The translations under genes were made by a program, and so were the position numbers. A DNA stretch of 51,982 bases. Source: Bacteroidales bacterium. GTDB taxonomy: Bacteria > Bacteroidota > Bacteroidia > Bacteroidales > FEN-979. Below, in pieces: positions 6,756 to 51,312 of the stretch. Each line of letters begins with the position of its first letter. Position 1 is the first letter of the stretch. Below the pieces are notes generated by a model, which saw only the letters and a program-made list of their open reading frames with translations, did not search any database and was not told where the DNA came from. Location: assembly GCA_017882335.1 (NCBI GenBank), contig JADGPR010000015.1, positions 1 through 51,982 on the forward strand, in the 5' to 3' direction.

Positions 6756-8292
6756 CGTTCATTTTTGACATGACCGTTCGGGTCCTGCCAGGAGCATCAA
6801 ACGATGCACTTGGAGATATAGTATTCAGGGAGGAATAATCGATTTCCAGGTCCAAGAATTTTGCAAACCGTGCAACGAATTTCAACTTGACATCTTTCGT
6901 TGCACCATTACGGTTCTTTGCAATACTGATCTCTGCAACCCCTTCCACCGGGCCGCCATAAGCATCATCTTCAATCTTATAATATTCCGGACGGTAGATG
7001 AAAAGAACCATATCGGCATCCTGTTCGATGGATCCCGATTCACGAAGGTCGGAGAGGATGGGCTTCTTGACGAGTCTTTTCTCAACTTCGCGGCTCAACT
7101 GCGACAAGGCGATGATCGGAACATCCAGCTCCTTTGACAAGGCCTTGAGCGACCGGGAGATATTACTGATCTCCTGTTCCCGGTTTCCCTTATGTTCCGG
7201 TGCTCCCTGCATTAACTGCAAATAGTCGAGGATCACGATTTGAATATCATGCTGTGTTTTCAACCGCCGGCACTTTGCCCGGAGTTCGAAGATCGTCAGT
7301 GCGGGTGTGTCATCGATAAACAAAGGTGCATCGATCAATGTGGAGATACGGGAATTGAGCTGTTCCCATTCATAGTCTTCCAGGTTACCACGTCTTAGCT
7401 TCTCAGCGCTGATTTCCGTTTCACTGGCGATGAGACGCGTAACCAGCTGAACAGCCGACATTTCAAGGGAGAACAAAGCTACAGGCTTTTTAAAATCTAC
7501 TGCAATATTGCGGGCCATGGTCAGTGCCATTGCCGTTTTTCCCATCCCCGGGCGGGAAGCAAGAATGATCAGGTCGGATTTCTGCCAGCCTGAGGTGATC
7601 CGGTCGATTTCTGTAAACCCGGAACCCACACCGCGCAGATGCCCGTCATGCGACCGCCCCGCTGCAATTTCAGCTACCGCCTCTTTCACCAATGATTGCA
7701 TGCTCCTGACATTCCTGCGGATACTGGTCTCACTAACGGCAAACAGGTTGCCTTCAGCACGGTCAAGGAGTTCAAAAACATCCGTCGTATCTTCAAACGC
7801 ATCCTTTATGATGGCAGAAGATATCCGGATCAACTCACGCTGAATATGTTTTTGAAGAATAATCCTCGAATGGAATTCAATATTTGCCGACGATGCAACC
7901 CGGTTTGTCAGCATCGCAATATAATATGGACCTCCTACCAATTCCAGTTCCCCTGATTGCCTGAGTTCATCTGTCACGGTGAGAATATCTACCGGCTTAA
8001 CCTGGGAAAATAACCGTGTGATTGCACCGAAGATAAGCTGGTGTTCGCTCTTGTAAAAAACCTCAGGTTTCAGCAACTCGATAACGGCAGCCAGCTTGTC
8101 TTTTTCAAGCATCATGGCCCCGATCACGGCTTCCTCAAGATCCACTGCCTGGGGAGGCACTTTCCCATGCTCAAGAACAAGATCTGTACCCGGCGCCTTT
8201 CTGGGCTTTTTTCTTACAAGTCCCTGACCTGAAGCAGGAGCGGTCCTGCCTGAGTTACCGGCTTCTGCGGCGCTGTTATTAAATTCTTCCAT
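6727..8292 (-). CDS. dnaB: replicative DNA helicase
   Basis: This is the hexameric helicase that unwinds the chromosomal fork. It has 521 residues: an N-terminal primase-interaction domain (from QAVDLEEAVIGAMMLE), then the RecA-like motor with Walker A ASRPGMGKTAMAL and Walker B VILDYLQLM, and the loop segment LRESGSIEQDADMVLFIYRPE. No intein is visible. The first ~45 residues are a low-complexity Lys/Pro/Gly extension before the normal family start. A TATTTTTG box ends only 5 bases upstream of the ATG, which implies a very short or absent leader. The downstream gene overlaps its 3' end by 29 bases, suggesting translational coupling. Confidence 0.97.
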   Translation of the reverse strand: MEEFNNSAAEAGNSGRTAPASGQGLVRKKPRKAPGTDLVLEHGKVPPQAVDLEEAVIGAMMLEKDKLAAVIELLKPEVFYKSEHQLIFGAITRLFSQVKPVDILTVTDELRQSGELELVGGPYYIAMLTNRVASSANIEFHSRIILQKHIQRELIRISSAIIKDAFEDTTDVFELLDRAEGNLFAVSETSIRRNVRSMQSLVKEAVAEIAAGRSHDGHLRGVGSGFTEIDRITSGWQKSDLIILASRPGMGKTAMALTMARNIAVDFKKPVALFSLEMSAVQLVTRLIASETEISAEKLRRGNLEDYEWEQLNSRISTLIDAPLFIDDTPALTIFELRAKCRRLKTQHDIQIVILDYLQLMQGAPEHKGNREQEISNISRSLKALSKELDVPIIALSQLSREVEKRLVKKPILSDLRESGSIEQDADMVLFIYRPEYYKIEDDAYGGPVEGVAEISIAKNRNGATKDVKLKFVARFAKFLDLEIDYSSLNTISPSASFDAPGRTRTVMSKMNDDERNETAF

Positions 8293-8296
8293 CTTT

Positions 8297-8330
8297 CAAA
8301 AATAGAACTTATTCGCAAGGTAAACACAAA
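8297..8330 (-). promoter_or_regulatory. putative dnaB promoter
   Basis: On the minus strand TTTG (8330-8327) is followed after 22 bases by TATTTTTG (8304-8297). The -7 box ends 5 bases before the dnaB ATG (8292), so the mRNA would start at or next to the start codon. Confidence 0.5.
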
Positions 8331-8355
8331 TGCACTGTGATTTATTTTTCAACAA

Positions 8356-9660
8356 TCACATTCCGAAGGTCACACCGATATGTACCCATTTGTGCCATGC
8401 ACAACCATGAAACTCAGGACTTAACAAAAATTGTTCAACATCCAGCTGGATCCCTGCAAACGACAATGTGATACCGAATGTCCCCTGGTAGGTGAAACGG
8501 GATAGCTCACTGCTTTTTAGGATGTAAATACTCGACTTGTTAAACATACCACCTTCCAGTGTTGCATCATAACCCACCAGTTTTCCAAGAGAAGTAACGA
8601 AAACAAAGGCCTGGAATTTTGAATATCCTTTTGCATTATTGACCTTCATCCGTGAATAACCGTATGAACCAAAATACTGATTCATCAGTCCGGCACGAAA
8701 TTGAAAACCACCTCCCATATTGGTATACAGGGTTCCCAATGCTCCAACCGCATTCAGGTTCAGGTCAATTCGCCGGTTGCTGAAAATTCCTTTCTCATAG
8801 GCAAGGTTATAGTTTAGAACCAGGTCGTCCTGGATCTGGTTTTCCCATCCCAGTGGTTCGTTGTTCGTAGGTACGCTGTTATGAAACGACTTCTGCACAA
8901 AGTCTCCAAACGACGATGGCCCGATCACACCAAGGTCGATTTCGCTGGTCTGTCGGAATTTCTTACCCGGGTCGTTGGAGATCTTGAAACCACCAATGAA
9001 AAGATAAGCGGCATAAGGTCTGTCGCCTGGATGAATGCCGCCGACTTTTGTCGAAAACGGTGTGTACATGTTCTGGCCAATCGACACGCCGTAATAATTG
9101 ACCCCATTTCCCCAGTAAGGAACCATCAGCCACGATAACGGTGATTGTTTCAGGTAAGGGCTGATAAAATCAAAACGGATCCCATTTGTATAGTAACGGT
9201 CAGTATTATCAAGGATATCATTGTCAAAGTTGATCCGGATGGAACGTTCATGGCTCAACAGGATCATCGATGAGAACTCGGAATTTTCGACCTGAGAGAA
9301 GAGGTATGCATGGTTAACCGGTTCCCGGAAATCGATCTCAAGATTCGCACTGCGCAACCGGATCAGCTTTCTGATGAGGGTGGTGTCGATGATCTGAGGT
9401 CTGAGGTCTGAGGTCTGAGGTCTGAGGCCTGAGGTCCGAGATCTGAAGTTTGAGGTCTGAGGTCTGAGGTCTGAGGTTTGAGATCTTTTGACTTCCCACT
9501 TCTGACTTCCGACCTCAGACTTCGGCCTTCTGATTTCGGTCTTCCGACTTCTGACTTCCGACTTCCGACTTCTGACTTCTGACTTCTGATCTCGCTCTTC
9601 ATCCTCACTGCACCTGGCGGACAACAGAACAAGAAGTAAAAGGGTAGCGTATTTCCTCAT
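8356..9660 (-). CDS. LpxR-like lipid A deacylase (DUF2219) with a heptad-repeat N-terminal insert
   Basis: The C-terminal ~330 residues are an outer-membrane beta-barrel of the LpxR/DUF2219 family, which removes 3'-acyloxyacyl chains from lipid A. Family landmarks are INFDNDILDNTDRYYTNGI, GDRPYAAYLFIGG, LGVIGPSSFG and a His in QKSFHNS followed by GWENQIQDD. I chose the ATG at 9660 (MRKYATLLLLVLLSARC). An earlier in-frame start at 9681 would lie upstream of a TACTTTTG -7 box at 9669-9676. Between signal sequence and barrel are ~70 charged residues (KSEVRSR and QTSDLRP heptads) coded by 28 heptanucleotide units. Each unit is not a multiple of three, so a change in copy number would shift the barrel out of frame. 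Confidence 0.82.
   Translation of the reverse strand: MRKYATLLLLVLLSARCSEDEERDQKSEVRSRKSEVRSRKTEIRRPKSEVGSQKWEVKRSQTSDLRPQTSNFRSRTSGLRPQTSDLRPQIIDTTLIRKLIRLRSANLEIDFREPVNHAYLFSQVENSEFSSMILLSHERSIRINFDNDILDNTDRYYTNGIRFDFISPYLKQSPLSWLMVPYWGNGVNYYGVSIGQNMYTPFSTKVGGIHPGDRPYAAYLFIGGFKISNDPGKKFRQTSEIDLGVIGPSSFGDFVQKSFHNSVPTNNEPLGWENQIQDDLVLNYNLAYEKGIFSNRRIDLNLNAVGALGTLYTNMGGGFQFRAGLMNQYFGSYGYSRMKVNNAKGYSKFQAFVFVTSLGKLVGYDATLEGGMFNKSSIYILKSSELSRFTYQGTFGITLSFAGIQLDVEQFLLSPEFHGCAWHKWVHIGVTFGM
9393..9591. repeat. heptanucleotide tandem repeat, 13 + 15 units
   Basis: Two blocks keep perfect 7-base register. Block A (9393-9483) has 13 units of TCTGAGG, eight of them exact. After a 3-base interruption, block B (9487-9591) has 15 units of TCTGACT, with variants such as TCCGACT. 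Because 7 is one more than a multiple of 3, all three reading frames of an exact array code the same cyclic heptapeptide, and no stop codon appears. On the coding (minus) strand these read QTSDLRP and KSEVRSR. The whole tract lies inside the LpxR-like gene. Confidence 0.95.
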
Positions 9661-9668
9661 AGGAGGAA

Positions 9669-9676
9669 CAAAAGTA
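9669..9676 (-). promoter_or_regulatory. -7 box of the LpxR-like gene
   Basis: TACTTTTG on the minus strand, 8 bases before the ATG at 9660. No good -33 TTTG lies at the expected distance. It argues for the 9660 start and for a nearly leaderless mRNA. Confidence 0.4.
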
Positions 9677-9825
9677 ATCAATTCTCATATTTGCGCGCCT
9701 CAGTGATGCGTGCCATATCAAAAGTCTCTTATTGGTGCGCGACTGTGAAGCGTGCCCAAACAATATTCCTTAAATTTTACACGTTCAGCCCAATAAATAG
9801 TAACTTAGCATAAGTTATCATCATC

Positions 9826-10308
9826 ATGAGAAAGCTGATCCTCCTATTGATACTCCTGGCTGCCTTTTCAGGTGCATTTGCTCAGAAAACACTGGTCCTG
9901 GAGAAAATCGGGACTTCGACCCGGTATGCATTTTACCTCGGCGATGATGTAAAGATACGGACGAAAAAACAGAATGTAATTGTGAAAAGTTACTTGTGGA
10001 ACCTCACCGACAGTTCAGTGACGATAGGCCCTCGCACCACAATACCGTTATACGACATCAGCGCAGTCTATAAGCATTATTATTTCCAGAACCTTATGAC
10101 CAGGGTTCTTTTTTATGCAGGAGCGGGTTATTTTATTCTTGATTCTTTCAATAACCTGATCAATAAGGAACAGGTATTCGTCCCCCAAACCATGATCATC
10201 AGCGGATCCCTCCTCGGCGTCAGCATGGCAATCATCCCCTTGGGACAAAAAAAATGCAGGATCGGGATACGATGGAAATTAAAAATTATGGATATAAACC
10301 TGGAATAG
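9826..10308 (+). CDS. small secreted or membrane protein of unknown function
   Basis: This 160-residue protein has a clear signal peptide (MRKLILLLILLAAFSGAFAQ, cleavage after AFA). The next ~70 residues look like a small beta domain (KIGTSTRYAFYLGDDVKIRT). A hydrophobic segment at about residues 92-112 and another near 124-140 could be membrane helices. I do not recognise the family. It is divergent from the LpxR-like gene and converges with the phosphorylase gene, leaving 2 bases between stop codons. Confidence 0.7.
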   Translation: MRKLILLLILLAAFSGAFAQKTLVLEKIGTSTRYAFYLGDDVKIRTKKQNVIVKSYLWNLTDSSVTIGPRTTIPLYDISAVYKHYYFQNLMTRVLFYAGAGYFILDSFNNLINKEQVFVPQTMIISGSLLGVSMAIIPLGQKKCRIGIRWKLKIMDINLE

Positions 10309-10310
10309 GA

Positions 10311-11126
10311 TCAATCAAGGGTTCCGATCAGTTCCTTTAAGATCTTCGTCATCTTGGGTTCAACATTACTTGCTGCCAGGATCACATCCTGGTGCGTGAT
10401 CTCAACGATCTTTCCGGGTACTCCGAGATCGGAAATCACCGAAAATGCAAAGACACGCAATCCCATGTGACGGGCGGCAATCACTTCGGGAACCGTTGAC
10501 ATCCCCACTGCATCGGCCCCGATGGTACGTATATAACGATATTCTGCCGGAGTTTCAAAAGTTGGCCCTGAAACGGCTGCATAAATTCCTTTCTGCAGAT
10601 GGATATCGTGATTAACGGCAATGGTAAATACTTTCTCAATCAGTTCTTGGTCATAAGCATGGCCCATATCCGGGAAACGGGTTCCCAGCTTATCATCATT
10701 GCGGCCGATAAGCGGGTTGTCCTTCATCAGGTTTATATGATCCTCGATGATCATGAGGTCGCCGACTTCGAACGATGGGTTTACCCCGCCGCTTGCATTG
10801 GAAACGATCAGGAAATGGATCCCGAGAAGTTTCATCACACGTACGGGAAATGCGACCTCCTGCATGGAATAACCTTCGTAATAATGAAAGCGCCCTTGCA
10901 TAGCAACAATGTTTTTTCCGCTCATTTTCCCGAAGATCAGTTGGCCGTTGTGACCGTCGACTGTGGAAACTGGGAAATTCGGAATCGTAGTATAGGGAAT
11001 GGTATGAAGAATTTCAATCTCATTGACAAGGCCGCCCAGCCCTGTTCCGAGAATAATTCCGATATCCGGTTTCAGGGATATCCGGGCTTGTAAAAATTCA
11101 ACGGTTTCTTTGATTCTGTCCAACAT
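10311..11126 (-). CDS. punA: purine nucleoside phosphorylase
   Basis: It cleaves purine nucleosides with phosphate to the free base and (deoxy)ribose-1-phosphate for salvage. The 271 residues match the trimeric PNP (type I inosine/guanosine) family. Visible are the phosphate loop GIILGTGLGGL, the GRFHYYEGYSMQEVAFPVRV segment, SNASGGVNPSFEVGDLMIIE, and the base-pocket region SGPTFETPAEYRYIR. It overlaps the 3' end of lpxK by 29 bases (11098-11126), so the two are likely translationally coupled although their pathways differ. Confidence 0.93.
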   Translation of the reverse strand: MLDRIKETVEFLQARISLKPDIGIILGTGLGGLVNEIEILHTIPYTTIPNFPVSTVDGHNGQLIFGKMSGKNIVAMQGRFHYYEGYSMQEVAFPVRVMKLLGIHFLIVSNASGGVNPSFEVGDLMIIEDHINLMKDNPLIGRNDDKLGTRFPDMGHAYDQELIEKVFTIAVNHDIHLQKGIYAAVSGPTFETPAEYRYIRTIGADAVGMSTVPEVIAARHMGLRVFAFSVISDLGVPGKIVEITHQDVILAASNVEPKMTKILKELIGTLD

Positions 11127-12162
11127 AGTCTGTAATCAGTTTGTCAAATATCTGCTTGTTTTTCTCGTGAAAGTCGATTTCGATAGGAAGGTAAAATAAC
11201 GGAAGATTTTTTAAAAAATTACTGAACTCTGGAATTTTCAGCCTCATTATATCCTTTTCTGTAGTCAGGATGATTTTTTTTCGTGACGGAAGATCCTCGA
11301 AGCGTGACCGGATATTCTCCAGGTCTTTCATTTCGTATTGGTGATGATCAGGAAATTTCAGAATGTTGAATTCCGAACATTTTCTCCTGACTTCCTCCTG
11401 GAGTGGATAATCATTCGCGATCCCGGTAAATAAAAGGATATAGCTTAGCTTTTGAAGGATTGCCAGATCCTGTTCTTCATTGACCGGAACCGGACTTCCA
11501 TAGGTGATGAAAGAAAAGAAAAGTTGCTGGGAAGGCTGGGGTTTCAGATCTTCCAGTATCCTTCTCCGGGTAATGGGGGAAAATACTTTCGGTGTTTTTG
11601 TCACGATGATAATATCCGCCCGCTTTGCCCCGGAACGGAATTCCCTTAACCGCCCGGAAGGTACCACATGATCTTCGGTAAAAAGTTGATGATAATCGGT
11701 CAGGAGGATGGTAATACCCGGTTTTACCCATCGGTGCTGGAAGGCGTCATCCAATAAAACCAGTCCGAGGTCGGGAAATTTATCCATCAGCTTGTGGATG
11801 CCCCGGACCCTTTTTTCATCAACGGCAACCTTGATGTTGTGAAATTTTTTTACGAATTGGAGGGGTTCATCTCCGATATATTTAACATTCGACCTTCGGG
11901 AAGCCAGGATAAATCCCTTACTCTCCCTGCCATAGCCACGGCTCAGTGTTGCAGTAAGCATGCGGTCGCCCATAAGCCTGATAAGATACTCGATGTGGGG
12001 CGTTTTCCCGGTACCACCGAAGGAAAGATTCCCCACAGAGATGACCGGAATATCAAATTTTTCTGAAGGAAGGACACCTAAGTCAAAAAGAAGGTTCCTC
12101 ACCAGCATGATCATTCCGTAACAAAAAGCAAACGGGAGTAAGAGTATCTGTAAAAACCTCAT
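11098..12162 (-). CDS. lpxK: tetraacyldisaccharide 4'-kinase
   Basis: It phosphorylates the 4' position of the lipid A disaccharide precursor to give lipid IVA, at the cytoplasmic face of the inner membrane. At 354 residues it has typical length. An N-terminal hydrophobic helix (about residues 3-22) anchors it, and the P-loop is GNLSFGGTGKTP at about residues 44-55. The segment LVLLDDAFQHRWVKP and the GRLREF motif are also family-typical. Its presence shows that the organism makes lipid A, the substrate of the LpxR-like and PagL-like enzymes nearby. Confidence 0.93.
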   Translation of the reverse strand: MRFLQILLLPFAFCYGMIMLVRNLLFDLGVLPSEKFDIPVISVGNLSFGGTGKTPHIEYLIRLMGDRMLTATLSRGYGRESKGFILASRRSNVKYIGDEPLQFVKKFHNIKVAVDEKRVRGIHKLMDKFPDLGLVLLDDAFQHRWVKPGITILLTDYHQLFTEDHVVPSGRLREFRSGAKRADIIIVTKTPKVFSPITRRRILEDLKPQPSQQLFFSFITYGSPVPVNEEQDLAILQKLSYILLFTGIANDYPLQEEVRRKCSEFNILKFPDHHQYEMKDLENIRSRFEDLPSRKKIILTTEKDIMRLKIPEFSNFLKNLPLFYLPIEIDFHEKNKQIFDKLITDYVGQNQRNR

Positions 12163-13926: not shown

Positions 13927-15408
13927 ATGGCAAAAACAACAAAACCGAATGTTGCCAAAACAACCCCTGCCAAAGTGGTAAAGCCAGCTTCCAAAGTTGA
14001 AAAAAAAGTTGAGAAGAAGGCGGTAAATAAGAAAGAAAGTGTTGCTAAACAAGGAACTGCAAAACCTCTAGCGGCAAAAGCAGCCGTTAAAAAGCTTGCA
14101 ATCCAAGCACTTGCTCCGAGACCTGCAGAAAAATCGGCACCAAAGAAAGCTGCACCTGCAAAACCTGCTCCAAAACCGGCTATAAAGAAAGTTGTGACTT
14201 CAAAACCAGTTGTGAAACCAGTAATAAAGAAAGCTGCACCTGCAAAACCTGCTCCAAAACCGGCTACAAAGAAAGTTGTGACTTCAAAACCAGTTGTGAA
14301 ACCAGTAATAAAGAAAGTTGTGACTTCAAAACCGGTTGAGAAACCAATAGTAAAGAAAGTTGTAGCTTCAAAACCGGTCGAGAAACCAATAGTAAAGAAA
14401 GTTGTAGCTTCAAAACCGGTCGAGAAACCAATAGTAAAGAAAGTTGCGGCTTCAAAACCGGTTGAGAAACCAATAGTAAAGAAAGTTGTAGCTTCAAAAC
14501 CGGTTGAGAAACCAATAGTAAAGAAAATTGTAGCTTCAAAACCGGTCGAGAAACCAGCTGTTAAGAAAGTCGCACCTCGAAAACCGACAGAAAAAACCAA
14601 AAAAGAAGCGGTCCCTGCCGTTTTGAAGAAGACCTTCGCATTTGCTAAACAGGAACCCCCGCAAGATCTGAGCGAAGTAACCATTGAAAAGAAACTGATC
14701 GCCCTCTATAGCCTTCAGCAGATCGATTCCCAGGTCGACAAGATCAGGATCATCCGTGGAGAATTACCACTCGAAGTCCAGGACCTTGAAGATGAAATAG
14801 CCGGATTGGAAACTCGTATCGAGAACTATCTCCAGGAAAACAATGCGCTGGAAAAATCGATCACGGAAAAGAAATTCTCCATCAAGGATTCACAGGCCCT
14901 GATCAAGAAATATGAAGAACAGCAGATGAACGTAAGGAACAATCGCGAATACGATTCACTAACCAAAGAAATAGAGATCCAAAGCCTTGAAATCCAGCTT
15001 TCAGAAAAACGTATTCGTGAATTTCAGTTGGCACTGGAAGCTAAAACGGAAGAGATCAACCGGTTCCAGAGTATCCTGGCCGACAGAAAAGGTGATCTTG
15101 AGATAAAGAAAAATGAGTTGGATGACATCGTCGCCGAGACGGAAAAAGAAGAAAATGACCTGATCAGGAATTCGGAGATCAATCGCAAATTTATTGAAGA
15201 ACGATTGATCACCGCCTACACCCGGATCCGGAAAAATGCCCGTAATGGCCTTGCCGTTGTGCAAATCGAAAGGGATGCCTGCGGGGGTTGCTTCAATAAG
15301 ATCCCCCCTCAGCATCAACTCGATATCCGGATGCATAAGAAGATAATTGTTTGTGAGTACTGTGGCAGGATCCTGGTTGATGACGGAATTGTCAACTTAG
15401 TCAACTAA
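13927..15408 (+). CDS. C4-type zinc-ribbon coiled-coil protein with Lys/Pro-rich repeat arm
   Basis: The 493-residue protein has two halves. Residues 1-~225 are low-complexity and very basic (Lys, Ala, Pro, Val), with a 14-residue unit like KPVEKPIVKKVVAS repeated in tandem, reminiscent of histone-H1-like tails. Residues ~245-445 form a long coiled coil (LEDEIAGLETRIENYLQENN and following). A zinc ribbon closes the protein, with CxxC at 452/455 and CxxC at 476/479. The second half matches the short zf-RING_7/CdsZ-type proteins known next to Nif3 homologues; the basic arm is the unusual part. A nucleic-acid-binding role is an inference. Its stop overlaps the next ATG by one base. Confidence 0.85.
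   Translation: MAKTTKPNVAKTTPAKVVKPASKVEKKVEKKAVNKKESVAKQGTAKPLAAKAAVKKLAIQALAPRPAEKSAPKKAAPAKPAPKPAIKKVVTSKPVVKPVIKKAAPAKPAPKPATKKVVTSKPVVKPVIKKVVTSKPVEKPIVKKVVASKPVEKPIVKKVVASKPVEKPIVKKVAASKPVEKPIVKKVVASKPVEKPIVKKIVASKPVEKPAVKKVAPRKPTEKTKKEAVPAVLKKTFAFAKQEPPQDLSEVTIEKKLIALYSLQQIDSQVDKIRIIRGELPLEVQDLEDEIAGLETRIENYLQENNALEKSITEKKFSIKDSQALIKKYEEQQMNVRNNREYDSLTKEIEIQSLEIQLSEKRIREFQLALEAKTEEINRFQSILADRKGDLEIKKNELDDIVAETEKEENDLIRNSEINRKFIEERLITAYTRIRKNARNGLAVVQIERDACGGCFNKIPPQHQLDIRMHKKIIVCEYCGRILVDDGIVNLVN
14155..14580 (+). repeat. 42-bp in-frame tandem repeat
   Basis: The unit is about 42 bases and codes 14 residues (KPVEKPIVKKVVAS with variants). The central copies from about 14326 to 14565 are nearly identical; the flanking copies (KPVVKPVIKKVVTS, KPAPKPAIKKVVTS) are more diverged. 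There are no unique spacers, so it is not a CRISPR array. Confidence 0.9.
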
Positions 15409-41130: not shown

Positions 41131-44100
41131 ATGGAGAAATTCCATGCCTGGTATTTTCAACTAAAACCGCACTCCATCAAGCTTTTTATGGTTTTTTTTC
41201 CAACTAGATTTTTCGCGGTTTGTAAGGTGAAAGCCTTTATCTTCGCGTTGATCCTTACATCCGGAATGTTTACCACAGCTTTCGGGCAAATCAAAGCTGC
41301 AAAGAATGAAATGTTGCAATACAATTATTCAAAGGCAATAGAAATTCTCCACCAGTTTATTCAGAAAACCGATCCTAAAACAAAAGCGGAAGCAACACTG
41401 CTCATGGCAGATTGCTATCGGCTGCAAAATGATATGCAGGATGCCAGGGCCTGGTATTTCAAGGCGATCAGATTAGGGAATACAGAGCCTTTGACTTATT
41501 TTTATTATGCCAAGGCATTGCGTGCATGTGGTGATTATGAAGCCGCCAAGAAAATATTTCTCCGGTATGACTCCCTGATGCCGGATGACCATAGGGGAAA
41601 GATCTATGCCAGTTTTTGTGACAGTGCCATGGCCTGGGATGAAAAGCCTTTTGCATTTGAAGTGAATAACGCCAGGAACCTGAATTCGGGAAGTTCGGAG
41701 TTCGGACCGGTGTTTTATAATGACGGGGTCATGTTCGCCACGGACAAGATCATGTCTGCCGATGAGGATAAAAAATCGGGTTGGGCCGGAAATGGATATT
41801 TGAAACTGGTGTTTGCCAAACCCAAACAAAAAGACGATTACTACGGGGAGTATAACCTGCCAAAGCTTATCCCTGAATTCTTCAATAATGGCTCCAATGA
41901 CGGCCCTGCAACGTTCAGTAAAGACGGGAATGAGGTTTTTATCACCCGGACCGTCAAATCCACTGATAAATCCAAAGATGAATCCGAAGACGGACAGGCG
42001 AACCAGTTGAAGATTTTTTCGGCTACTATGACAAGTGATAAATGGTCGAAGATGAAACCCTTCTTTTTTAACAGTAACCGTTATTCTGTTGGGCATCCGG
42101 CCCTTGCACCCGATGGCGGTTCGCTTTATTTTGTTTCGGATGTCGACGGAGGTTATGGCGGGACGGATATTTATGTCTCCTCAAGGGATGGTGGCACCTG
42201 GAACCCACCTTCCAACCTTGGCCCTATTGTCAATACTTTTGGAAATGAAACGTTCCCATTTATGGCCGACAATGGCGATCTCTATTTTGCTTCCGATGGA
42301 CATCCGGGTTACGGAGGTCTCGATATTTTTGTGACCAGGAAGGTCGGGAATGTATGGTTGATACCGCAAAACCTGGGGAAACCGATCAACTCCTCGTATG
42401 ATGATTTTGCACTGGCGATGTATAAGAATGACTCGGTTGGCCTTTTCAGCGCAGATCGTCCGGGAGGTAGAGGAGAAGATGATATTTATAGTTTCCGGGT
42501 AGTCGGGCCGCTGCCTGCACTCACGGCTCAACCTGCAATCGCAACAGTTCCAAAAGCCACACCCAAAGAGGAACCCAAACCGGTGGAAAATGTAGTTCCC
42601 GTGCCATCACCTGTAATTGCTGAAAAAAAACCACCTGCTGAAGAGCCGAAGCAGGAAGTAAAACCGGAACCCCAGGTTGCACCGAAAGAAGAACCCAAAC
42701 AAGTGGAAAATGTAGTTCCCGTGCCGTCACCTGTAATTGCTGAAAAAAAACCAGCGGCCGAAGAACCCAAGCAGGAAGTAAAACCGGAACCGCAGGTTGC
42801 ACCGAAAGAAGAACCCAAACCAGTGGAAAACGTTGTTCCCGTGCCTGCGCCTGCTACTGCTGAAGTGAAACCACCTGCTGAAGAGCCGAAGCAGGAAGTA
42901 AAACCGGAACCGCAGGTTGCACCGAAAGAAGAACCCAAACCGGTGGAAAATATAGTTCCCGTACCTGCGCCTGCTACTGCTGAAGTGAAACCACCTGCTG
43001 AAGAGCCGAAGCAGGAAGTAAAACCGGAACCGCAGGTTGCACCGAAAGAAGAACCCAAACCAGTGGAAAATGTAGTTCCCGTACCGTCACTAATAATTGT
43101 TGAAGTAAAACCACCGGCCGAAGAACCCAAGCAGGAAGTAAAACCAGAACCCCAGATTGCACCTAAAGAAGAACTCAAACTGGTGGAAAATATAGTTCCC
43201 GTGCCGTCACCTGTAATTACTGAATTAAAACCACCGGCCGAAGAACCCAAGCAGGAAGTAAAACCGGAACCGCAGGTTGCACCGAAAGAGGAGACTAAAC
43301 CGGTAGAAAATATAGTTCCCATTCCATCACCTGCTACTACTGAAGTAAAACCGCCTGCCGAAGAGCCGAAGCAAGAGGTAAAACAGGAGCCACAGGTTGC
43401 ACCTAAAGAAGAACCAAAATCGGAAGTTTCAACAGAAATAAAAATCACTCCGGTTGCGACTATTGTTTCTAGATACATGGTTTCTGGTTGCATTAAAGAT
43501 AGAACAACGCATGATGTCATTGCTTCTGCAACTGTGTTTTTTCTTGACGAGAATAAAGGAAAGGTCATCGTACACAAGGCGAATGCAACCGGTTGCTTCA
43601 GATCACTGGTAATTGCCGGCGACAGCTACAGGGTTAAAGCAATGCAAACAGGCTATTCTTCCGACTGTGTTCCTTTCTTTTCCGACACCCTTGGCAATCA
43701 AACGGAAACGACGATTTCAAATGATCTTTTACTGGAAAAGATCGGGGTCATCCATTCATATAAAGTCGATAATATCTATTACGATTTTGACCGGTATTTT
43801 ATTCGCCCGGATGCAGAACCTTCTCTCAATAAACTTGTTCAGCTCATGAACGAAAATCAGGTAACGGTGGAATTAGGGGCACATGCCGATTGCAGGGGCT
43901 CTGCTGCATATAATATGATCCTCACCGAGAAACGGGCTGCATCGGCAGTTCATTATATCGTTCAGAAAGGGATTAACGGATCCAGGATTACCAGCAGGTG
44001 GTATGGGAAATCACAGCTTACAAACAATTGCAATTGTGACGAAGGCGTTCACTGTACAGAAGTTCAACACCAGGCCAACCGCCGGGCTGAGTTTAAAATT

Positions 44101-50541: not shown

Positions 50542-51312
50542 TTATTTCGTCGGTTTTTCTTTTTCTACAACAGGTTCAGCAGCCTTTTTTTTGGTTTTGA
50601 CGGCTTTTGGTTTTACTTCCACGGCTTCAGTTTTCTCCGGTTTTTCAGCTTTCACATTAGTCTTTTTTGCGGCTGCTTTTTTTATGGGGGATTTAACAGG
50701 CTTAATTTCCGGGATTTCAACCTTGGCGGGAACTTCAACTACAGGTTCCTTTTTTACAGGGGCTTTTACAGGTTTAACTTCCGGGATTTCAACCTTGGCG
50801 GGAACTTCAACTACAGGTTCCTTTTTTACAGGGGCTTTTACGGGCTTAACTTCCGGGATTTCAACCTTAGCGGGAACTTCAACTACAGGTTCCTTTTTTA
50901 CAGGGGCTTTTACAGGCTTAACTTCCGGGATTTCAACCTTGGCGGGAACTTCAACCTCAGGTTCCTTTTTTACGGGGGCTTTTACGGGCTTAACTTCCGG
51001 AGGGATTTCCACCTTGGCGGGGACTTCAATCACCGGTTCCTTTTTTACGGGGGCTTTTACGGGCTTAACTTCCAGTGGGATTTCCACCTTGGCGGGTGCT
51101 TCAACCACTGGTACATTCACAATTACGGGTTCAATCATGACTGCTTGTACTTCCGCCACTTTATGTGGTTTCGGTTCCTGGACCTTTTTTGGTTTTGCCT
51201 GTGCTGCTTTGTTTGCAATGACAATCGCTTTTTTAATTCTACGCGGCCTTCTTACACCGTAAGAACCGATGACAATTTTGCCTCTTCTTGTTTTTTTATC
51301 TCCTTTTCCCAT
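50542..51312 (-). CDS. 30S ribosomal protein bThX fused to a Lys/Pro/Val/Glu repeat tail
   Basis: Residues 1-~27 (MGKGDKKTRRGKIVIGSYG then VRRPRR) match the tiny ribosomal protein bThX, which sits in the head of the 30S subunit in Thermus and is found in Bacteroidota. Here the protein continues for ~230 more residues. Six units of about 24 residues (APVKKEPVVEVPAKVEIPEV and variants, 72-bp period) are followed by a basic Lys/Ala end. The bThX peptide alone is normally under about 60 residues. A TAAATTTG -7 box lies 38 bases upstream and a strong terminator downstream, so it is a single-gene unit. Where the tail lies on the ribosome is unknown. Confidence 0.85.
   Translation of the reverse strand: MGKGDKKTRRGKIVIGSYGVRRPRRIKKAIVIANKAAQAKPKKVQEPKPHKVAEVQAVMIEPVIVNVPVVEAPAKVEIPLEVKPVKAPVKKEPVIEVPAKVEIPPEVKPVKAPVKKEPEVEVPAKVEIPEVKPVKAPVKKEPVVEVPAKVEIPEVKPVKAPVKKEPVVEVPAKVEIPEVKPVKAPVKKEPVVEVPAKVEIPEIKPVKSPIKKAAAKKTNVKAEKPEKTEAVEVKPKAVKTKKKAAEPVVEKEKPTK
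50689..51110 (-). repeat. 72-bp in-frame tandem repeat, about 6 copies
   Basis: Units start near 50689, 50761, 50833, 50905, 50977 and 51052. Most steps are 72 bases; one is 75 because of an extra proline codon. The copies at 50761-50976 are nearly identical. The tract codes the tail of the bThX fusion. Confidence 0.92.

Follow-up and report, generated by a model that had tools for sequence, protein, structure and literature searches.

A heptamer array in the spacer of a Bacteroidales LpxR-family gene is probably one copy of a dispersed TCNGANN repeat

In an uncultured Bacteroidales bacterium (source genome G000; 3.13 Mb, 123 contigs), a gene of the LpxR family carries a long array of seven-base units, each consisting of TCNGA and two further bases, in the spacer that precedes its barrel domain. 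We consider it probable, at roughly 70%, that this array is a copy of a TCNGANN repeat that is dispersed in this Bacteroidales lineage and often palindromic, and that it has been recruited as a protein spacer. The basis for this reading is the dispersal of the repeat, the polarity of its arrays, the in-frame position in the gene, the array-less homologues with spacers of equal length and the predicted disorder of the encoded stretch. The window, by which we mean the whole stretch of DNA that was analysed, is one contig of that genome, 51,982 nucleotides long. The relevant features are the following.

8356..9660, minus strand: LpxR-family gene, 434 codons plus stop, ATG at 9660 (open frame; Pfam PF09982)
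9610..9660, minus strand: lipoprotein-like signal sequence ending in Cys17, presumably lipidated (Cys17 in 16 of 16 aligned proteins)
9331..9609, minus strand: spacer of 93 codons from Cys17 to the conserved part, disordered in the model (pLDDT; length comparison with homologues)
9393..9591, minus strand: 28-unit TCNGANN heptamer array, 66 of the 93 spacer codons (repeat finding, unit parser, frame analysis)
9393..9483, plus strand: purine-spacer half of the array, 13 units of the TCTGAGG type, with the longest perfect tract (unit parser)
9484..9591, plus strand: pyrimidine-spacer half, 15 units of the TCTGACT type, the other hairpin arm (unit parser, fold)
8371..9252, minus strand: LpxR barrel domain, modelled with 12 strands (DNA coordinates derived from the Pfam match)

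An earlier note on this DNA had called the gene LpxR-like, and this identity was upheld. The Pfam LpxR family (PF09982) matched at 196.8 bits (E 5.6e-58; curated cut-off 26), a profile of 16 homologues found Salmonella LpxR (PDB 3fid, E 5e-6), and the same structure was the top PDB match in a fold search with the predicted model (E 3.3e-12), whereas a single-sequence PDB search with the protein lacking its first Met gave no match. The model, of modest confidence (mean pLDDT 56.5), has 12 strands from residue 140 onward, and its residues 15-95 have a pLDDT below 50 and no confident structure. Thus the protein is like Salmonella LpxR in Pfam family, strand number and best fold match; unlike it, the present clade has a presumed lipidation cysteine and a mostly disordered spacer of about 90 residues before the barrel. 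The invariant His260 aligns with a histidine of 3fid that we take to be the catalytic one; the alignment does not extend to the N-terminal part of the active site. By homology, the gene product is an LpxR-family outer-membrane enzyme with putative 3'-O-deacylase activity, and Cys17 is presumed to be the lipobox cysteine of a lipoprotein-type signal sequence. The start is best placed at the ATG at 9660, giving 434 aa, which corrects the earlier note.

The closest named relatives of the protein, from Bacteroidales/Bacteroidetes MAGs of fen and Lake Pavin, are 86, 79 and 77% identical to it, and a protein search of plasmid records returned 10 records, each below 60% identity and with less than 80% of the query covered. 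A gene of lipid A synthesis, that for LpxK (tetraacyldisaccharide 4'-kinase; PF02606, E 7.2e-70), lies at 11098-12162 on the minus strand. It is separated from the LpxR gene by about 1.4 kb, in which a purine nucleoside phosphorylase-type gene is found; a DnaB helicase gene is on the other side. Other repeats in the window are 84/42-bp tandem repeats in the KKVVASKPVEKPIV-type tail of a zinc-ribbon protein (Zn_ribbon_9; 14142-14586, plus strand), with units that are multiples of three; seven 120-bp repeats in the Pro/Glu/Val-rich spacer of an OmpA/PD40 protein (42560-43423, plus strand); and six 72-bp repeats in a Lys/Val/Pro-rich protein (50678-51112, minus strand), the first 27 residues of which resemble ribosomal protein Thx just below the cut-off (29.0 versus 29.7 bits).

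The count of 28 heptamers, which had been made by inspection of the letters, was reproduced by our unit parser. Tandem Repeats Finder reported two adjoining period-7 arrays, at 9393-9486 (13.4 copies, 85% matches) and 9485-9589 (15 copies, 77% matches). The array is 199 nt long, lies in frame within the gene and, as had been described, stands just past the signal sequence, six codons beyond Cys17; its units follow the TCNGA-plus-two pattern with substitutions. The period-7 autocorrelation of the spacer DNA was 0.64, a value equalled in 0 of 500 mononucleotide shuffles, which together with 0 matches to the reversed pattern in G000 ruled out chance periodicity. The longest perfect tract spans 35 of the 199 nt, or 5 units, so that recent slippage is likely. 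A property that the earlier note had missed is that the two halves are complementary and form an inverted repeat. Since a purine-spacer half is followed by a pyrimidine-spacer half on the plus strand, the array could pair with itself as a long, imperfect hairpin, and the sense RNA was predicted to form a single long, interrupted one (-76 kcal/mol, z -3.5; none of 200 shuffles did as well).

The coding frame is open through the array. A second frame also crosses it and ends at 9365-9363, as previously reported, and the third stops inside the array at 9517, contrary to the statement that all frames lack stops. With these stops in the two other frames, a change by one or two units in either direction would terminate translation ahead of the barrel, in keeping with the earlier claim that a change of one unit shifts the frame of the whole barrel. 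The further claim that all frames code the same heptapeptide had to be given up: two kinds were found, with SEVRSQK-like units in the half that is read first and TSDLRPQ-like units in the other. These peptides are hydrophilic and basic, and the spacer, with 23 K+R and 15 D+E, has the highest K+R among 45 loci, a set that includes some genomes twice.

Among 61 genomes searched, 36 (G000 included) have the LpxR gene, and the stretch before the barrel was inspected in all 36. Three TCNGA units in a row were found in 1 of these 36 genomes, G000. The comparison of homologues for the insert, proposed in the earlier note, thus placed the array in G000 and not in the other 35, two of which carry a different heptamer. 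The array was absent from all 4 other searched genomes of the genus, and no TCNGA array was present in 15 homologue loci from a genome-contig collection, several of which are from the same genomes as the 36. Of 20 homologues at 55% identity or more, 19 have 88-94 aa between the cysteine and the barrel, compared with 93 in G000; the exception, L043, has no recognised signal sequence, and the cysteine finder misfires there and at L051, so that the lengths of 58 and 73 aa are unreliable. Similarly, the whole protein measures 429-435 aa in the 15 genome-contig homologues and 434 in G000. The spacer of the homologues is variable in sequence and nearly constant in length, a length that is not strictly kept, as shown by the 99 aa of G024 versus 71-87 aa in seven sisters of its genus. 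The spacers of G004 and G024 hold another heptamer, CAGYCRG (0 of 500 shuffles each), which is dispersed in both genomes, and weak period-7 signals were seen in those of L142, L143 and L048 (21, 12 and 9 of 500 shuffles, respectively). By eye, the spacers of G003 and of the closest relative, G001, are still alike, and the replacement in G000 therefore seems later than its split from G001.

The TCNGANN pattern is widely scattered. In G000, each strand has 69 matches to four consecutive units, as compared to 0 for the reversed control, and the four-unit pattern is present in 30 of the 61 genomes (G000 included). Counts vary greatly, G001 (85% complete) having 1, G003 113 and G004 129. Among 395 genomes sampled from the phylum, 28 have the purine-spacer version, G000 being one of them. 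We called individual arrays in sampled stretches of G000, G003 and G004, all of one genus, with genes taken from a codon-usage caller rather than annotation; the arrays of G003 came from purine-spacer four-unit matches and those of G004 are among the matches listed, so that both are samples and not a census. In G000, 36 stretches (35 and the window) yielded 26 arrays, with none above threshold in L001, L004, L013, L022, L072, L075 and L076-L080. The LpxR array is the longest of the 26, at 199 nt, the next being 107 nt; across the family, lengths range from 28 to 199 nt. Among the 76 arrays called in the three genomes, 67 are intergenic, 4 overlap a gene end and 5 lie inside a called gene, and one of these five, L121, is upstream of the likely start of RNase H1, leaving 4 inside genes. 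The earlier note had warned that arrays of this sort might also be found in the intergenic DNA of related genomes, and this caution was well placed. Two genomes of another genus, G029 and G031, are rich in TCNGA arrays with spacers mostly of mixed AT, TA, CA and TG types instead of purine or pyrimidine pairs; judged by these units, their arrays are a sister subfamily. A literature search found no paper on TCNGANN arrays.

Arrays outside genes are concentrated near gene 3' ends. A 3' end is the nearest gene end for 47 of 71 such arrays (17 of 24 in G000, 22 of 37 in G003 and 8 of 10 in G004), whereas the array-free gaps of the same stretches, the only background used, have 37.5, 38.8 and 31.9% of their bases nearest a 3' end. 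The one-sided binomial p-values were 0.001, 0.009 and 0.003, respectively, and like the other binomial and Fisher values given here they are too optimistic, as arrays and units are treated as independent. Relative to the stop codon, the start of 28 of the 47 arrays lies between -15 and +8 nt, and several supply the stop themselves as the TGA of a TCTGA core. Many intergenic arrays of G000 (L012, L010, L009 and others) begin at the stop codon of the preceding gene. On the sense strand, 27 of the 47 are of the purine type, 13 of both and 7 of the pyrimidine type. Most arrays are one-sided (59 of 76), and the 17 two-sided ones all run from purine to pyrimidine, with 0 in the opposite order (two-sided p 1.5e-5). 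TCTGA cores, which can make stops, account for a smaller share of the exact cores in the four coding arrays (3 of 42) than in 3'-end arrays (81 of 308; Fisher p 0.006), and for 1 of 21 in the LpxR array alone (p 0.03); these p-values are too optimistic because units within an array share ancestry.

The family also occurs in coding sequence elsewhere. In G003, an array lies in frame between two conserved blocks of tsaB; the Pfam match of the protein is TsaD (PF00814), and we take the protein to be TsaB. The loop at this site is shorter in six homologues and nearly as long in G005. A second array, in G000, is in frame in a loop of an FAD-dependent oxidoreductase, a loop that is shorter in G001, and a third, in G003, is in the inter-domain linker of a UvrA-like protein. 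In-frame arrays are thus found in unrelated genes, tsaB, the FAD oxidoreductase gene and the LpxR gene. The tsaB, FAD oxidoreductase and UvrA-like genes are not plausible contingency genes, and the same loops of the FAD oxidoreductase and TsaB seem to be hit repeatedly. As separate observations, the TsaB of G005 has a SRKSEVVSQKPEV stretch resembling a decayed array, and different repeat-like peptides occupy the same loop of the FAD oxidoreductase in G004 and G003 (loci compared: L135, L136 and L130).

The earlier note had interpreted the array as the switch of a phase-variable contingency locus, in which slippage by one heptamer would toggle LpxR translation and cells would differ in lipid A acylation. 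Several observations agree with this: the seven-base unit, which is not a multiple of three, stands in the coding frame and the other frames stop at 9517 and 9365, before the barrel; there is a perfect tract of 5 units; and LpxR is a surface enzyme. That the longest array of G000 is in such an enzyme is also what a contingency locus would predict, and this counts against the spacer reading. In addition, heptamer tracts, including some within open reading frames, are proposed for phase variation of Haemophilus influenzae in the available part of one report (PMC2651432). However, the repeat family is genome-wide, mostly intergenic and in frame in housekeeping genes, and is not tied to this locus; 35 of 36 homologues lack the array; most units are imperfect, the halves having 85% and 77% matches; and the present spacer length is that of array-less homologues, the norm of the LpxR family. 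A literature search on lipid A, LpxR and phase variation returned no phase-variable lpxR in titles. The switch was thus left unsupported, and we regard it as unlikely; it keeps some weight because of the proposed switching by tracts in H. influenzae and because each species is represented here by one genome. Taken more widely, the evidence favors a repeat that roams and is tolerated over a switch built for the purpose, and ON/OFF switching is possible as a by-product of the seven-base unit, not as its evident purpose.

It is also conceivable that the hairpin itself is selected and acts in mRNA or DNA, through pausing, stability or protein binding, the peptide being incidental. The fold of the LpxR sense strand, the fixed purine-to-pyrimidine polarity and the 3'-end bias would fit such a role, as would the folding of four out of eight intergenic arrays, in which no shuffle out of 200 was as good as L007, L009 or L016 and 3 of 200 were as good as L012. 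In the other four (L011, L014, L023 and L002), however, 34 to 144 of 200 shuffles folded as well, most arrays of the family have one side only, Rfam had no match in 8000-10000, and the other 35 homologues manage without this array. Ordinary intrinsic terminators were rejected, as the stem-loops lack a T tract: five or more T within 25 nt downstream followed 2 of the 47 3'-end arrays versus 4.8% of random windows, and a terminator scan around the intergenic array L012 gave one site, outside the array. Selection for the hairpin as such is thus very unlikely.

We favor the recruitment of a dispersed repeat as a spacer, which could have proceeded as follows. TCNGANN arrays would settle mostly between genes, often starting from a stop codon, with an occasional one landing in a protein loop or linker. 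One such stop-poor heptamer array may have entered the sequence-tolerant spacer of the lipoprotein-type LpxR, where it would have grown or been homogenised unit by unit, by slippage or duplication, until it filled 66 of the 93 codons. Selection on frame and length would presumably have kept it only in frame and near the usual spacer length, and the LpxR with an array spacer is likely made and active.

Dispersed heptamers are known from other bacteria. According to the available part of one study, GGGAATC and GGGGA(C/T)T in Xanthomonas and Nostoc form genome-wide tandem arrays, mainly in non-coding DNA, with a cluster on the coding strand no more than 50 bp away from stop codons, which some of the repeats overlap (PMC4692102). 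Similarly, TCNGANN forms many tandem seven-base arrays that are mainly intergenic and cluster at stop codons with a strand preference; as far as that part of the study allows comparison, it differs in sequence, in having no GGG run for quadruplexes, in arrays that are often two-sided with fixed polarity and in the presence of some in frame in genes. TAACTGA repeats are described, in the accessible portion of another paper, from Beggiatoaceae, cyanobacteria and five Bacteroidetes, a few having long arrays, and in the paper's main genome they lie mostly just upstream of start codons (PMC4679880). TCNGANN likewise consists of dispersed tandem heptamers in Bacteroidetes; compared with that portion, its sequence differs and it favors stop codons.

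Rickettsia palindromic elements, as set out in the available text, are dispersed, measure about 150 bp and encode a conserved peptide, and they lie in frame within unrelated metabolic genes (PMC10969869). TCNGANN arrays resemble them in being often palindromic and, in some cases, in frame in unrelated genes, and in their absence from orthologues, as judged from the tsaB and FAD oxidoreductase alignments and from LpxR. In contrast to the fixed-length, non-repetitive elements of that text, they are tandem heptamers of variable length (28-199 nt). The H. influenzae tracts, in the part of the report at hand, have uniform units that differ in copy number between strains (PMC2651432). They share with the LpxR array the seven-base unit and, in some of them, the location inside an open reading frame and a frame set by unit number; set against that part of the report, TCNGANN units are degenerate, and one genome per species is represented here. 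Hence TCNGANN arrays share features of dispersed heptamers and of in-frame palindromic elements and match neither in full.

More broadly, and more tentatively, TCNGANN and sister heptamers such as CAGYCRG may belong to a spreading class of tandem repeats, many of them palindromic, that settle time and again at the borders of stop codons and also, in frame, in protein loops and linkers, serving ordinary and even essential proteins as a ready-made disordered spacer. If so, the LpxR spacer would have been entered at least three times, almost wholly in G000 and partly in G004 and G024, and the polarity of the arrays would point to a single mode of spread, coupled to transcription or replication. 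Regardless of how far this extends, the arrays document a route from intergenic repeat DNA into protein, in which a stop-poor heptamer array fills a disordered linker with the frame intact, even in tsaB. They are also a warning that a repeat alone is insufficient ground for naming a gene phase-variable. Finally, the polarity of two-sided arrays and their starts at stop codons make the origin of bacterial heptamer repeats testable.
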